From positions 124,001 to 188,000 of the forward strand of contig NZ_CP019285.1 in assembly GCF_000226975.2 (NCBI RefSeq): DNA of 64,000 nucleotides, read 5' to 3'. The notes under the pieces were generated by a model that was given only the letters and a program-made list of their open reading frames with translations, had not been told where the DNA came from and searched no databases. The position numbers were made by a program, and so were the translations under genes. The DNA is from Halobiforma lacisalsi AJ5 (lineage in GTDB: Archaea > Halobacteriota > Halobacteria > Halobacteriales > Natrialbaceae). Below are positions 12,792 through 53,388 of this stretch, piece by piece (positions within the stretch are counted from its first letter, which is position 1; the number at the start of each line of letters is the position of its first letter).

Positions 12792-15596
12792 TCACTCGAG
12801 CAGCGGCCGCGCCGCGTTCCCCGCGACGAGCACGGCGGTGACGGCGACCGCGGCCGTCGTCACGAGCGGGTTCAGCACACCGAGCACGGCAGCGGGGAGG
12901 ACGACCGCGTTGTAGCAAAGTGCCAGTGCGAGCGTCCCGCGGACCCGCCGACGCGCCGCGACGGCCAGTTCGAACGCCCGTTCGACCGTCGGAAGCGTGT
13001 CCTCGACGATCGCGAGGTCCGCCGCATCGGCCGCGAGTGCGGTCGCGCCGCCGAGCGAGATCCCCAGGTCCGCCGCCGCGAGCGCCGGCGCATCGTTCGT
13101 CCCGTCGCCGACCATCGCGACCTGCCCCCGATCTTTCAGCCGGTGGATCGTCGCCGTCTTCCCGTCCGGCGGCACCCCCGCGAAGGCGTGATCGACCGCC
13201 GGGTGGGCCGCGAAGAACGCCGTCGCGGCCTCGTCGTCCCCGGTCAACACCACGACCTCGAGCTCTCGCTCCCCCAGACTCGAGAGGGCGTCGTCCCAGT
13301 CCGCTCGCGGCTCGTCGCCGACGACGACGAACCCTTGCGCGCGCCCGTCCCGGCCGACGACGACGGGAAGCCGGCCGAACCCGCGTTCCTCGCGGACCCG
13401 TTCCTCCAGGTCACTCTCGAGCGTCCACCCGCGGTCCCGGAAGAGGTCGGGGTGGCCGACCAGGATCCGGCTACCGTCGACCCGTCCCGCCACGCCGGTC
13501 TCGAGGCCGTCGAACGCCTCGACACGGGGGGAGACGGCGGCGTCGCCGCCGTCGGGGACGAACTCGCCGTCCCCTGGTTCGTCGGCCGCGAACGCATCCG
13601 CGAGCGCAACAGCGACCGGGTGGGACGCCCGCCGCTCGAGTTCACCGGCGGCCGCGAGCAGGTCCGGCGGCCCCTCGGCCTCGAGAACGCTCATCTCGCC
13701 GGTGGTCAGCGTCCCCGTCTTGTCGAAGACGACGACGTCGACATCCCGAAGCCGCTCGAGGACGGTCTCGTCGAAGACGACGATGCCGTGATCCAGGGCC
13801 TCCCGGAGCCCCGCGCCGACCGAGGCGGGCGTCGCGAACCCGAGCGCCCACGGGCTCGCGACGATGATCGACAGCATGATGGCCTCGGCGGCGTCGATAG
13901 CCGTTCCACCGCGGAAAAGGGTCGTGACGCCGACGGCGACGGCGGCGGCGACGACCAGCGGTGCGAGCACCGCGGCGACGGAGTCGGCCCGGCGCTGGAC
14001 GCCGTGGGTCGCGCTCTGGAGATTCCAGACCGCTTCCGTCAACCGGTCGATACTGCTCGTCGTCTCCGCGCCGACGTCGACGACGGCCGCTCCCGACCGA
14101 ACGACCGACCCGCCGACGACGGGATCGCCTTCGGCCTTTGATATCGGGAGCGACTCACCGGTGACGACCGCCTCGTCGACCGTACAGGCCGTCTCGAGGA
14201 CGCCGTCGACCGGGATCCGTTCGCCCTCGCGGACGAGCAGGCGTTCGCCGCCCTCGAGGTCGCCGATGGGGACGGTTCGGGTGGGTCCGGTAGCCGTCCC
14301 GTCACCGTTTCCGTTCCCCTCCTCGCGTCCGTCCTTCCCCGACGCTGTTTTCCCGTCGGAGTCCTGCCCGGATCCGTACACCCGCGCCGTATCGACCTGT
14401 GAAATCGTCAGATCGGTTAGCCGATCCCTCGCTCGGCGCTTGACCGTCGCCTCGTAGAACACCGCGCCCATCACGAGTGCGGCGACGACGATCGTCAGGT
14501 CGTAGTAGACCTCGATCCGGCCGCGGAAGATCGACAGCGTGCCGTAGGCGAAGCCGGCCAGGATCGTCAGCGCGGCCAGCAGGTGGGTGTTCGGCCGTCG
14601 CAGTTTCAGGCTGACGTAGGCCCCGCGTAACAGCGGCCCGCCGGTGAGATAGAGGACCACGCCGGACACCACGAGAAACAGCGGTAGGACCAGCAGGCCG
14701 TCGAAGCCGGCGAAGGCGTCCTCGTATCGGGCGAGCATCGGTCCGTCGACGAACGACGAGAGGTAGACCGGGTAGAGAACCGCGAAGTACGGCACGAGCA
14801 GAAACGAGCCGAACACGATGCCGACGATGTACCGGACCTCGAGCATGGTGTCCGAACGGCGCTTCCGGAGGCCGGTCATCTCCCTGGAACGGTGCGTGGA
14901 ACCGGTGTCGTCGGCGGGACCGTACTCGCCGTCCTCCTTCGCGTCCTCGGTTCCTGTCCCACGCTCGCCGTCGGTCGCTCCGTCGGGCACCGAGTCCGCC
15001 GTGGCCGCCGACCGGAGGTACGCGGTATACCCCACCGTACTCAGGGCGTCCCGAAGATCCGACGTCGAGATGCGGGCGGGGTCGTGGTCGACGCGGACCG
15101 TCTCCGTGACGTAGCTCGCAGCGGCGTCGGCGACGCCGTCGCGGCGCTGGGCGACCGAGTCGAGGAACGCCTCGCAGGTCGCCGAGTGCATGCCATCGAC
15201 CCGGAAGAACGTGCGGACCTGGGGCTCGTCGCCGTCGTTCTCGATGGGCGTGCCTTCCCCAGTACCAGCGTCGGTTCCGTTGTCTCCCCCTGCCGTACGA
15301 CCCTCGAGCGACTCCGCTCCCCCTTCTCCCGGCCCGTCTGCACCACGCTTCGAGGACGGCGACTCGAGCGTCCGATCGACGTCGCGACAGCCGGTCGAGC
15401 AGTAGCGCTCGTCCGGGTCGCCCTCTCCCTGGCCCGTGGGTCCGGCCGCGGATCCGTAAACGCTACTCGTCGGGACCGACGAGTCCCCGGGGTCGGAACC
15501 GGAGCCGGAGCCGGGCAGCGGCGCCCCACAGAGAGCACATCCTCGTTGGTCGGAGCGGCGGTCAGTCACTAGGCATCCCTCCACCGCCAACCACAT
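12792..15596 (-). CDS. P1B-type metal-translocating ATPase, non-canonical metal motif
   Basis: Predicted cation pump of about 934 residues. The N-terminus has a Cys-rich treble-clef-like module (CALCGAPLP, then YCSTGCRD) and one HMA domain whose metal loop is GMHSATC, i.e. a single Cys. Membrane helices follow, then the actuator loop (VVTGES), the phosphorylated Asp in DKTGTLT near residue 626, HP (ASHPVAVAL) and the hinge GDGTNDAP near residue 827. The sixth-helix motif, normally CPC/CPH/SPC, reads SPWALGFATP, and the last helices lack the usual MxxSS. Metal identity is therefore unclear. Start ATG at 15596 or GTG at 15569; either follows a plausible promoter. Confidence 0.88.
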   Translation of the reverse strand: MWLAVEGCLVTDRRSDQRGCALCGAPLPGSGSGSDPGDSSVPTSSVYGSAAGPTGQGEGDPDERYCSTGCRDVDRTLESPSSKRGADGPGEGGAESLEGRTAGGDNGTDAGTGEGTPIENDGDEPQVRTFFRVDGMHSATCEAFLDSVAQRRDGVADAAASYVTETVRVDHDPARISTSDLRDALSTVGYTAYLRSAATADSVPDGATDGERGTGTEDAKEDGEYGPADDTGSTHRSREMTGLRKRRSDTMLEVRYIVGIVFGSFLLVPYFAVLYPVYLSSFVDGPMLARYEDAFAGFDGLLVLPLFLVVSGVVLYLTGGPLLRGAYVSLKLRRPNTHLLAALTILAGFAYGTLSIFRGRIEVYYDLTIVVAALVMGAVFYEATVKRRARDRLTDLTISQVDTARVYGSGQDSDGKTASGKDGREEGNGNGDGTATGPTRTVPIGDLEGGERLLVREGERIPVDGVLETACTVDEAVVTGESLPISKAEGDPVVGGSVVRSGAAVVDVGAETTSSIDRLTEAVWNLQSATHGVQRRADSVAAVLAPLVVAAAVAVGVTTLFRGGTAIDAAEAIMLSIIVASPWALGFATPASVGAGLREALDHGIVVFDETVLERLRDVDVVVFDKTGTLTTGEMSVLEAEGPPDLLAAAGELERRASHPVAVALADAFAADEPGDGEFVPDGGDAAVSPRVEAFDGLETGVAGRVDGSRILVGHPDLFRDRGWTLESDLEERVREERGFGRLPVVVGRDGRAQGFVVVGDEPRADWDDALSSLGERELEVVVLTGDDEAATAFFAAHPAVDHAFAGVPPDGKTATIHRLKDRGQVAMVGDGTNDAPALAAADLGISLGGATALAADAADLAIVEDTLPTVERAFELAVAARRRVRGTLALALCYNAVVLPAAVLGVLNPLVTTAAVAVTAVLVAGNAARPLLE

Positions 15597-49815: not shown

Positions 49816-50154
49816 TCGCGCCGGCCCGTCGCTCCGCGCGACGTCTCCGGTTGATACTGGTGAATTGCCAGAGCCCTTGACACCGGCCCGAATGGTGATG
49901 GAGCCAGATGATTGGTTGTCTCCAGAAAATTCTGTCACTCATCAGGATTCAGACACCATGGAGCGTTCCGACGAACCTCTTACAATATTATCTGAACTTC
50001 TCCAGCTTAACTCCCAACACCGACGATTAGTTCAGAATTTTAATCCAAACTAAGCCAATAATAGTATAAATATCCAAATGTGAATAATTTTATATGGGGA
50101 AGAATCCTCATGAAAGTAAAGATTGAAATGGTGACTTATGGTAATGTCTTTTGG
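49816..50154. other. Left boundary of AT-rich island
   Basis: Base composition falls from GC-rich to AT-rich within this gap, at about 49860-49920. It holds the small ORF at 49892-50053 and TATA-like elements near 50058-50066 (AGTATAAATA) and 50088-50095 that would drive the following gene. No terminal repeat matching the other end of the island was found by eye. Confidence 0.5.
49892..50053 (+). CDS. Small orphan ORF (53 aa) at island edge
   Basis: ATG at 49892 gives a 53-residue acidic protein beginning MVMEPDDWLSPENS and ending LLQLNSQHRRLVQNFNPN. Composition is AT-rich like the island. There is a predicted helix near the C-terminus and no Cys or membrane segment. I do not recognise it. 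Supported only by the uninterrupted frame and natural-looking composition; could also be chance. Confidence 0.3.
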   Translation: MVMEPDDWLSPENSVTHQDSDTMERSDEPLTILSELLQLNSQHRRLVQNFNPN

Positions 50155-51129
50155 ATGCGAGACAAAATTAATCGAAGGAAGCTATTGACGATGGTGCCTG
50201 GATCGGTTGCTACTACTGGTATAGCAGGTATCGCTACTGCCTCAGACGACAGGTTTTGTGAACCAGACTGGGCTGACGATGGTGATGAAGATGAATTTAG
50301 TGACGAAGATACTGAGGACTCGGCATCGAAAGTAGTGGTAAGTCGTAATGAGACCGTTCGAATTAATTCAGAAATCCATATTAATAACGTTTTTATTGGT
50401 AGCGGCGATTTTTTCTTTGACATTGGAGTTGGTGGATATATTGAGTCAGCCCCTAATCCAGACAAACCTTCACCAGACTGTGATAGGCAAGCTATTAAAA
50501 CGCATGGGCTCAGTTTAAATATTAGCGAAGCGTCCCTGTTCTCTACTGGACACTCTGACCAAATACTTGTTGCACCCGATGCAGCCGCTGGTGATTCTGA
50601 ATCTGATGTCTCCGATCTTGGTTTTACGATATTATCTGGTGCAATAGGACTCGCAAATACCAAGGCAAGTGCAGCAGTGACTGCTGCAGAAGCCGTATCT
50701 ACCGGGTTAGATGTCATTGGAGAGGAAGAGGAAGATGGAGATAATTATGTCGAATACTTATGGAATGATGATAATCCCTCACCATCAGACTTCAGTGCTA
50801 TTTCACACTATGCTCGTGCAGTCGTGATATCTCATAGTGATACTGAGATCCCGTATGAGTTCACACTTGAGCTAAATCAGATAGGAATTACTAATAGATG
50901 CTCAGAGGGATTAGAAGATTGTTCCGATTTTTACCCCCGTTCAGCGGCGGAGTTAGACAAAGAGTATGAAATACATGGTTTTAATAAAGACGGAGATGTG
51001 AGGCCACAGTCCTACTCAAAAACAAAGTTGTCCGAAGCGGAAGTTAGAGAGAAAAACTTGCCAGAAGAATTACTAGATGAAGGACCACTATACAAAATAG
51101 ACAGTGATCCCTTGGTAAAAGAAATCTGA
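50155..51129 (+). CDS. Tat-exported hypothetical protein
   Basis: Protein of 324 residues from ATG 50155. The N-terminus MRDKINRRKLLTMVPGSVAT carries paired Arg and a hydrophobic core, a Tat-type signal. The mature part is very acidic (DDGDEDEFSDEDTEDS) with few Cys and no recognised domain. Upstream ATGs at 50080, 50110 and 50128 extend it but weaken the signal peptide. Codon usage is AT-rich compared with core genes, a sign of transfer. It is the largest gene in the island, with no match I can name. Confidence 0.6.
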   Translation: MRDKINRRKLLTMVPGSVATTGIAGIATASDDRFCEPDWADDGDEDEFSDEDTEDSASKVVVSRNETVRINSEIHINNVFIGSGDFFFDIGVGGYIESAPNPDKPSPDCDRQAIKTHGLSLNISEASLFSTGHSDQILVAPDAAAGDSESDVSDLGFTILSGAIGLANTKASAAVTAAEAVSTGLDVIGEEEEDGDNYVEYLWNDDNPSPSDFSAISHYARAVVISHSDTEIPYEFTLELNQIGITNRCSEGLEDCSDFYPRSAAELDKEYEIHGFNKDGDVRPQSYSKTKLSEAEVREKNLPEELLDEGPLYKIDSDPLVKEI

Positions 51130-51567
51130 TCCAGCACCCATTGTCACACCCAATAGATCACTCAGTAAGCCTGTCTTTGGTGAGACCGTGCTCTTAATCG
51201 GTCTTGAGCACGTTGACGAGGTCAGCGAGCAGTCTCGGGAGTGGGACTACAATGGTGAGTAGCGACCGACCTGAGAATGAGATGCAGTGCTGTCAAGAGA
51301 TTTAATGGGTATCAGCGTAGGGGTTCGTAGGTTCTTACAAGCAAAACAGCATACTGAGAAACCGTACGACGAGAAAATTATATAAACTAGAAGGGTCATC
51401 AGAAATGATTATTCGCCCTTGGAAGCGAAAGTTGATCAAGAGCGGGATCGATTGCTCTGTTGAATAGCGGCGCTCAAGTCTAGCCTCCATTTCAAGTAGA
51501 CTGGTCATGACCACCTTCCGTTGATCCTCAGTTCGTTTTTACGGAAGTCGCCCTCAACGGCTGCGCT

Positions 51568-51663
51568 TCAACAAAGCGGTTGTATCGGTTTCTTTCCTTC
51601 CACGTTGTCGAAAACGTTTTGCAATTTTTCGATAGAGATTTCGTCGAAATGATCCACTACGTC
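51568..51663 (-). pseudogene. IS630-type transposase N-terminal remnant
   Basis: A minus-strand frame reads VVDHFDEISIEKLQNVFDNV then EGKKPIQPLC and a stop. It resembles the N-terminal helix-turn-helix region of haloarchaeal IS630-type transposases (DHLDEIS, LDNVEGKKPTQRL, from memory). Only about 32 codons remain. Confidence 0.45.
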
Positions 51664-51699
51664 TATTAATCTGAACAGAAAGTTCTAACGACTACTATA

Positions 51700-51940
51700 G
51701 ATGAAAACGACGCATTCAGCCGCGAATATATCGTGCACGATGATGGTGAGTACGTTGATAGAGACGCTCACGTTAACACCTGCGAGAGCCATGGATCGCT
51801 GGCACGATTCTGGCTCTTGCCCCACCGTGGCGTCTCCAAGGACAAGCTTACGTCATACCTTAGAGCGTTCCAACTCCGCCGTCAAGTTTATCAAAACCAG
51901 GGAGAGGGGCACTGAAAACAGCCTCAAAACTGCGCTATGA
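51700..51940 (+). pseudogene. IS1595-type transposase C-terminal remnant
   Basis: The plus strand reads DENDAFSREYIVHDDGEYVD, then HVNTCESHGSLARFWLLPHR and GVSKDKLTSYLRAFQLRRQ. This matches the end of IS1595-family transposases (VNTCESHGSL, PHRGxSKDKL, YLRAFQLRR). The reading frame breaks near 51900, where the last residues must be read in another frame. The N-terminal two-thirds is missing. Confidence 0.75.
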
Positions 51941-52003
51941 CTCGCCAATAATCTTCACAAGAACGAACAAAGAATATTTGATTACATAGAACTAGCTGTT
52001 GAT

Positions 52004-52545: not shown

Positions 52546-53388
52546 GTGCGACATTCGCGCCCTGTACTCAGCACGCCGCGGAGAACATCTCTGGGACCTG
52601 GTAGAGTCACTAGCTATCAAAATCCAAACTCGAGTGAACAGCCGTTCAGCCAGTTCTATGAATACCGAAAACTCCCTCAACAACTGTTATGTTCTTCTGA
52701 TAACCTGGTCCGCACATGGAGACGTATCTCCCTCGAGTACGCACACGACGACGAGTTACCGTCGGGACACACCGACGAGGTTCGAACGCCGAACGCGCTG
52801 GTCGAACGCTTCCTGAAAGCGTACACGGAACCCGGGGACAAGGTAATCGACGTCTTCGCGGGGTACGGGACGACGCTCAAAGTGGCCGACCGACTCGATC
52901 GCGTCCCGTACGGCCTCGAGTTCGAATTCGACCGTGCCGCCCACGTTCGTGAGGAGATCTCGACCCCGGACCACGTCCGGCAGGGGGACGTACTCGAGTT
53001 GGACCCGTCGTGGTTCCCGGCCTGTGACTGTTGTTTCACGTCTCCACCGTTCATGGAGCGGACGGACGATCGGAACCCGTTCCGGAACTACTCGGGCGAG
53101 AGCACCTACGAGGACTACCTCGACGACGTCGAAACCGCGTTCGCGCGCCTCGATTCGGTGCTGGCACCCGGCGGACACGTCGTCGTCGACGTCGCGAACA
53201 TGAAATACGAGGGACGAGTGACGCCGCTGGCCTGGGACGTCGCGGAACGGCTCTCGAACGTCTTCCGCTTCGACGGCGAGACCGTCGTCACGTGGGAGGG
53301 CGACGGGAGTCCCGACGAAAGGGAAGGGCGCTTTGGGTACGGCTACGACCACTCGTACTGTCTCGTGTTCACGAAGGATTCGGACTGA
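52546..53388 (+). CDS. DNA methyltransferase-like gene with doubtful 5' end
   Basis: Beta-class amino-methyltransferase. The SAM motif is KVIDVFAGYGTTL near residue 100 and the catalytic TSPPF lies near residue 165; TSPPF is typical of N4-cytosine or N6-adenine methylases. Residues after about 60 (LEYAHDDELPSGHTDEVRTP onward) look like the family. The first 57 codons from the only start (GTG 52546) are unrelated and belong to AT-rich DNA, so the true 5' end has probably been replaced. Without a cognate restriction gene, an orphan-methylase role is likeliest. May be inactive. Confidence 0.72.
   Translation: MRHSRPVLSTPRRTSLGPGRVTSYQNPNSSEQPFSQFYEYRKLPQQLLCSSDNLVRTWRRISLEYAHDDELPSGHTDEVRTPNALVERFLKAYTEPGDKVIDVFAGYGTTLKVADRLDRVPYGLEFEFDRAAHVREEISTPDHVRQGDVLELDPSWFPACDCCFTSPPFMERTDDRNPFRNYSGESTYEDYLDDVETAFARLDSVLAPGGHVVVDVANMKYEGRVTPLAWDVAERLSNVFRFDGETVVTWEGDGSPDEREGRFGYGYDHSYCLVFTKDSD

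Follow-up and report, generated by a model that had tools for sequence, protein, structure and literature searches.

The substrate of a P1B-type ATPase is commonly read off the CPx-type motif in its membrane part, which raises the question of what such a pump does once this motif has been replaced. The case considered here comes from a 64,000-nucleotide stretch of Halobiforma lacisalsi AJ5 (contig NZ_CP019285.1, positions 124,001 to 188,000; "the window" below means this whole stretch), where a P1B ATPase gene on the minus strand, at 12792-15569, encodes 925 amino acids plus the stop in an open frame. Its sixth transmembrane helix (TM6), VASPWALGFATP, contains SPW and has no Cys within the motif. 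We refer to proteins with S, C or T followed by P-W at this place of TM6 as xPW, and find that they form a conserved clade that has lost the sulphur ligands of the copper path through the membrane while the catalytic engine is maintained. Such a clade offers a natural series for studying the change or loss of a pump's cargo.

A sequence-only reading of this stretch had let the gene begin at ATG 15596, giving it an extent of 12792-15596. A start at GTG 15569 (VTDRR...), 27 bases further in, is more likely, because many relatives likewise begin with V[ST]D.

The SPW protein and its relatives

By its general features the window protein resembles other P1B pumps. It matches the Pfam domains E1-E2 ATPase, HAD hydrolase and HMA, passes the heavy-metal P-type ATPase model TIGR01525 (367.4 bits against a cut-off of 346.25) and carries the dephosphorylation motif TGES (14151-14162), the phosphorylation motif DKTGT (13710-13724; DKTGTLT in this protein), the P1B-specific HP motif of the nucleotide-binding domain (13617-13622) and the hinge motif GDGTND (13092-13109; GDGTNDAP in this protein), all of them intact and, like every feature given below, on the minus strand. 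The sequence-only reading had reported the catalytic motifs as complete, together with SPW in the sixth helix, an HMA loop reading GMHSATC and the absence of MxxSS, and each of these was read again from the open reading frame. What is missing is the CPx or xPC metal signature. Among the marks of Cu(I)-type P1B-1 pumps (CPC, YN and MxxSS) only YN is retained, and the usual motifs CPC, CPH and SPC named in that reading do not apply. The P1B-4 and P1B-5 subfamilies are marked by SPC and TPC, respectively, and both retain the second Cys; neither motif occurs in the window protein, which has W at the third place.

A structure model covers residues 118-925 and was built from a 25-sequence alignment (mean predicted local distance difference test score, pLDDT, 75; predicted template modelling score, pTM, 0.68). 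In this model the S-P-W triplet of TM6 (M4; 13848-13856) falls in a predicted break between two helices, like the CPC kink of known pumps. The nearest solved structures by structure comparison (Foldseek was also run) are all P1B pumps, the four best with Z scores of 27-30; they include 4umv (Z 29.5, root mean square deviation 4.8, 588 residues aligned), 3rfu (Z 28.9, deviation 4.6, 621 aligned) and 7qbz (Z 27.9). The predicted fold is that of a P1B pump, in a model of moderate confidence.

An SPW triplet seen in one protein might result from a local mutation, a sequencing error or a decaying pseudogene, an explanation that we consider extremely improbable and have rejected. Among 69 loci picked by protein similarity, 65 have P-W (55 SPW, 5 CPW and 5 TPW), and because these loci were not selected by motif, the conservation of P-W is beyond chance; the other 4 are CPC and lie outside the clade in the tree. 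The sequence-only reading had named CPC at this position in homologues, and loss of the catalytic Asp in relatives, as grounds for abandoning its interpretation. CPC was found only in the paralogues L002-L005 described below and in other CPC-type relatives outside the clade, and DKTGT is present in 69 of 69 loci. The ratio of nonsynonymous to synonymous substitution rates (dN/dS, own Nei-Gojobori script) is 0.25 between the window gene, with its open frame, and the nearest relative, and across five pairs it amounts to 0.16-0.28 for the whole gene and 0.11-0.27 for the core. The xPW clade is under purifying selection.

For the phylogeny, near-copies above 90% identity were removed, which reduced the set from 212 to 134 rows; further removal of rows above about 76% identity, of the VPE-type ATPase of L044 and of one too-gappy row led to a 93-row tree, and removal of about half of the SPW rows to a 50-row tree with 32 xPW left. 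After the motif columns had been taken out, the 93-row tree groups its 52 xPW rows, and these alone, in one clade, with a Shimodaira-Hasegawa-like approximate likelihood ratio test (SH-aLRT) value of 100; in the 50-row tree the clade has 100/100 support and is present in 200 of 200 bootstrap trees. The haloarchaeal clade with conserved SPW that the sequence-only reading had named as support for its interpretation was found by both alignment and tree. Both trees place it inside a haloarchaeal CPC family of CcoI-like architecture, where the name CcoI refers to the architecture and to the gene neighbourhood of the paralogues, the trees being made up without an experimentally characterised CcoI. 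Most likely, the xPW clade is a single-origin haloarchaeal offshoot of CcoI/FixI-like (CopA2) P1B ATPases. The first motif residue (S, C or T) has changed at least five times on the 93-row tree. Other departures from CPC in TM6 were noted in passing: two bacterial P1B relatives, L100 and L115, have YPC (GYPCALG) and group together with an SH-aLRT value of 99, and two haloarchaeal P-type ATPases, L007 and L190, have CPG (IGCPGALVIGPP) and also group together in the tree.

A whole-genome search detected four more P-type ATPases of the same architecture in the same genome (L002-L005), which are 38-47% identical to the window protein; their TM6 contains SCPC and their last helix MxxSS. Three of them are encoded within about 5 kb of COX1 matches plus COX2, COX3 or, in one case, SCO1 (one COX2 match sits just under its cut-off), and the gene of the fourth adjoins that of a DsbD_2 membrane protein; these surroundings are those expected of CcoI-like copper suppliers. 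CcoI/FixI pumps (CopA2-type), including these four, and the xPW protein are alike in the N-terminal CxxC...C-x2-GC module and the one HMA domain, and have the P1B core, HP and the catalytic motifs in common. Unlike them, the xPW protein has SPW, FCS for FCC, a degenerate HMA CxxC and a gained Cys in the actuator (A) domain, is without MxxSS and the entry Met and, in the window, is encoded away from oxidase genes. Curated models separate the two types. All 10 proteins tested score above the cut-off of TIGR01525, whereas the copper model TIGR01511 (cut-off 397) is passed by 4 of 4 CPC paralogues (433-445 bits) and missed by 6 of 6 xPW proteins (306.9 bits for the window protein), and the cadmium model TIGR01512 (cut-off 313.5) gives the same split between the 4 paralogues and the 6 xPW proteins, with 260.7 bits for the window protein.

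Ligands of the copper path and retained residues

Site statistics were obtained by comparing 89 non-redundant xPW sequences with 13 haloarchaeal CPC-type sequences. Membership of the 89 required P-W and an open reading frame with DKTGT, so that both of these counts are built in; 56 of the rows derive from the 69 similarity-picked loci, and the out-of-frame copies L132/L178 are left out. Residues of Archaeoglobus fulgidus CopA (AfCopA) are numbered via a profile alignment to 3j09 (offset 14), and their roles are taken from the available part of PMC9433437.

In the membrane, position 572 is S in 70, C in 11 and T in 8 of the 89 xPW sequences and C in 13/13 of the CPC type, while position 574, W in xPW by definition, is again C in 13/13. 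At the place of M908 (AfCopA M711, in M6) Met occurs in 0/89 xPW against 13/13 CPC-type sequences, and Ser at positions 911 and 912 (S714/S715) in 21/89 and 6/89 against 13/13 and 13/13; the window protein reads VAVTA at this MxxSS place in the last helix (12834-12848). The copper-entry Met (AfCopA M158), present in 12/13 of the CPC type, is left in 1/89 xPW and is Thr in 76/89, Thr328 in the window protein (14586-14588). In the HMA domain (PF00403; residues 122-181, 15027-15206) the degenerate loop GMHSATC (15174-15194) has one Cys left, the first Cys being found in 6/89 and the second in 84/89 xPW, against 13/13 for each in the CPC type. Two SPW members, L038 and L041, have lost both HMA cysteines (GMQSAIDE). 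In the N-terminal module C-x2-C ... FCS-x-GC (residues 11-61; 15387-15539) the fifth Cys is left in 8/89 xPW against 13/13, the CPC paralogues having FCC-x-GC; PF12156 matches this module below its cut-off only, in the CPC paralogues and in plasmid CPW copies. The sequence-only reading had proposed that this Cys-rich module selects the ion, a proposal that we do not retain, as the module is common to the CPC family and the xPW clade mostly lacks its fifth Cys.

By this alignment, each sulphur ligand on the known Cu(I) path (entry Met, CPC Cys, M6 Met and first HMA Cys) is absent from all or most xPW sequences. The window protein is like CopA (Archaeoglobus fulgidus, Legionella; 3rfu, 4bbj, 7r0g) in fold and catalytic residues, and unlike it in having no counterparts of M158, C380, C382, M711 and S714/S715. 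Its overall fold also resembles that of ZntA (P1B-2; 4umv), from which it differs in lacking CPC and in scoring below the curated Cd-family cut-off.

Much else is conserved. The YN of M5 (886-887; 12909-12926, a segment that includes residue 882) is kept, with Y in 87/89 and N in 88/89 xPW, as are the acidic residues D357 (88/89), E373 (87/89) and D529 (79/89); HP and GDGTND are complete in 89/89, and TGE is found in 87/89, with one TGD and one gap. Further features set the xPW proteins apart from the CPC type. Four residues ahead of YN, Leu882 is shared by 83/89 xPW, where 13/13 of the CPC type have Trp; in the A domain, eight residues ahead of TGES, column 462 (Cys462; 14184-14186) is Cys in 88/88 non-gap xPW and Ala in 13/13 of the CPC type; and a basic segment, RSREMTGLRKRR, ahead of TM1 (14856-14891) is conserved in xPW and not so in the CPC paralogues. 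Among the alignment columns of the membrane part no replacement metal ligands stood out, hydroxyls only.

The first-branching xPW rows in the 50-row tree are L239, L171 and L208. L171 and L208 retain the fifth N-terminal Cys, and L171 the first HMA Cys too, while L239 is not among the keepers; several plasmid CPW members retain every cytosolic Cys ligand. All of these already have W574 and Cys462 and are without M908. Because early-branching and plasmid-borne keepers of cytosolic Cys share these membrane and A-domain changes, the membrane path would, most simply, have been altered on the stem of the clade, the cytosolic Cys ligands having decayed afterwards, although repeated loss of these ligands may be an alternative to such a single order.

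What the pump may transport

The retained catalytic residues make ATP hydrolysis by the xPW protein likely, and with its M4 and M6 ligands naturally lost the protein is unlikely to carry Cu(I) by the known route. Published mutants of Rhodobacter CcoI (both CPC cysteines) and of AfCopA (M4-M6 ligands), described below, speak for this view. An unusual cargo, which the sequence-only reading had suggested, is plausible. We tentatively favour, with confidence somewhat short of even, an active P-type pump whose cargo has changed and is less thiophilic than Cu(I). The protein would still cycle as an ATP-driven P-type pump; its transport site would have been rebuilt, sulphur ligands giving way to hydroxyls (T328, S/T572, T335 and S583) and a Trp wall; the cargo would be other than Cu(I), most likely harder and non-thiophilic; and the mobile copies would do the same work within cuproprotein islands.

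Several points weigh against a changed cargo. The alignment has no new charged membrane residue that would mark a hard-cation site, and YN, D357, E373 and D529 are mostly retained. Loss of the entry Met says little when taken alone, as changing this residue in AfCopA leaves the Cu-stimulated ATPase activity in vitro unaltered (available part of PMC9433437). Copies outside the family of the window organism often lie within copper islands, and some CPW copies have the full cytosolic Cys set, which would fit a copper-linked role. Finally, the structure model is of moderate confidence (pLDDT 75).

Whether anything is transported at all may also be asked. It is possible, if on the unlikely side, that xPW represents a P1B subgroup of its own, one that lost its membrane metal site on the stem and cycles without a transition-metal cargo, with Trp as a plug and Cys462 as a switch. 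If so, the plug would sit at the CPx kink, the gained A-domain Cys would be a possible thiol switch, and the intermediates (CPW, full cytosolic Cys set) would record the order of loss. Rather doubtful, in our view, is a non-transporting ATPase that uses its cycle for regulation or assembly, for example in cuproenzyme or thiol-redox maturation. Such a role would be in line with Rhodobacter CcoI, where a change of both CPC cysteines stops Cu(I) transport and leaves about 70% of the ATPase activity (available part of PMC8475189), and it would agree with the missing replacement ligand set, with the gain of an invariant A-domain Cys and with the DsbB, thioredoxin-domain protein, CtaA, cupredoxin and multicopper oxidase genes that accompany plasmid copies. 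It fits less well with the conservation of the membrane domain (YN, acidic path residues) and the catalytic groups, which goes beyond the needs of a scaffold, and with the family loci, which are without a partner gene common to all contexts.

Among readings that keep a transition metal, a pump for Zn(II), Co(II) or a similar ion, parallel to P1B-4 (SPC) and P1B-5 (TPC), appears quite improbable: the S or T found as first residue in 78/89 recalls these motifs, and the model ties between the Zn pump 4umv and the Cu pump 3rfu, but P1B-4 and P1B-5 retain the second Cys, the xPW proteins tested fall below the Cd-family cut-off, and the clade lies inside a CPC, CcoI-like family. Continued pumping of Cu(I) or Ag(I), with the indole of Trp574 standing in for the second Cys through a cation-pi contact, as in CusF/SilF, would suit the metal-gene clusters beside 15/24 non-family copies, not all of them independent, and the CPW members, which retain the first Cys and in some cases all N-terminal Cys ligands. 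According to the available part of PMC10656224, Trp caps Ag(I) in SilF and sits close to Cu(I) in CusF, but in SilF loaded with Cu(I) a water holds the Trp off the metal. We regard this mechanism as unlikely: the M6 Met and the Ser-Ser pair are gone, 78/89 are without even the first Cys, AfCopA no longer functions once its M4-M6 ligands are changed to alanine (available part of PMC9433437), and CPC-type relatives persist in most family genomes (strict SCPC pattern in 111/121). Similarity alone is insufficient for naming xPW genes copper or heavy-metal exporters.

Two proteins from the literature can be compared by description only. The available part of a review (PMC7558416) lists Rcc01042 of the bacterium Rhodobacter capsulatus as a putative P1B ATPase of unknown function without typical transmembrane metal motifs, in this respect like xPW, the absence of which leaves copper resistance and cbb3 oxidase assembly unaffected; no clade of such proteins is described there. 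A plasmid-encoded P1B ATPase of Haloferax mediterranei has no copper-binding site by Pfam or InterPro (available part of PMC9240420). Among the literature matches listed, none dealt with an SPW/xPW motif or with a CPx-less P1B clade of haloarchaea, and the motif and clade are unmentioned in the available parts of PMC3600143, PMC9240420, PMC10654040 and PMC12029414.

Distribution and gene neighbourhoods

One haloarchaeal family, that of the window, has xPW in most of its sampled genomes; in others xPW is plasmid-borne. A match at E <=1e-100 was obtained in 120 of 121 genomes of this family, a count that includes CPC paralogues. The DNA pattern [S/C/T]PW[A/V] occurs in 93 of 392 genomes of the order (59/96 within the family, 34/296 outside); 20 of the 37 family genomes missed by it do have xPW when their sequences are read, so that at least 79 of the 96 carry xPW, pattern hits being taken at face value. 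Beyond the order, none of 241 genomes of the phylum contained the pattern, and neither did any of another 49 genomes (mostly bacteria, some other archaea), zeros that apply to the pattern only, as its strict form misses variants. No xPW was seen in the TM6 stretches printed from loci L042-L121, which came from the patterns VFDKTGTL and GDGTNDAP and are mostly generic P-type ATPases.

Outside the family some copies are CPW, with identical motif DNA on small contigs of four families (f4, f5, f12 and f17), and proteins 93-100% identical to such a CPW protein are encoded on plasmids of, among others, Haloarcula marismortui (pNG600), Halobaculum roseum and Halobacterium hubeiense. Damage was observed in non-family copies, L132/L178 being out of frame past GDGTN and L122/L172 and L198 having short open frames; some mobile xPW copies may be decaying.

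Gene neighbours were counted at 56 loci, with genes called by our own script and only annotated recurring clusters considered. Seven metal-gene clusters (cupredoxin, multicopper oxidase, CopZ-like HMA, two CDF, ZIP and NicO) occur at 15 of 24 non-family loci and 0 of 32 family loci; as one island is represented several times among the 24, which are hence not all independent, the Fisher value of this comparison is no true probability. A family plasmid copy, L205, has metal and SCO-type genes by annotation, though it scored 0 in the cluster count. Of 10 plasmid records examined, those of Halocatena and Halolamina are of the CPC type, leaving eight xPW, of which six lie in metal or cuproprotein islands (Haloarcula marismortui, Halobaculum magnesiiphilum, Natronorubrum daqingense, Halovenus salina, Halorubrum sp. 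CBA1229 and Halorubrum salinarum), a raw count made without control regions within the plasmids. Both Halorubrum islands have coxB and a cbb3-type oxidase subunit I gene within about 9 kb, coxB in one of them within 2 kb. The plasmid copy of Halosolutus gelatinilyticus has a single HMA protein gene about 4 kb off, and that of Halomontanus rarus no metal genes in the nearby annotation.

A constant operon partner of the family copies was sought and rejected, as there are two recurring contexts, one with thiC and a phosphoribosyltransferase gene and one with a sulfatase and a YCF48/BNR-like protein gene, and no gene is common to all. In 11 of 32 family loci (L156-L158, L160, L162, L163, L169, L206, L207, L210 and L211) the gene for the membrane-anchored YCF48/BNR-like protein lies upstream of the SPW gene in the same orientation, directly adjoining it in 7, and may form an operon with it; a sulfatase gene is near the SPW gene in 10 of 32. 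At L179, a haloarchaeal contig (76001-93000), the SPW gene and the gene of a canonical CPC ATPase lie side by side in the same orientation.

The neighbours of the window gene itself are thiC and genes for a phosphoribosyltransferase, a glycosyltransferase and a histidine kinase, with no oxidase genes alongside. Elsewhere in the window, positions 50000-52000 are low in GC content (0.44, where most of the window has about 0.66). This stretch holds an open reading frame of 349 amino acids with a secreted-looking product (50080-51129), and the reading frame that follows it (52546-53388) is DNA methyltransferase-like by eye.

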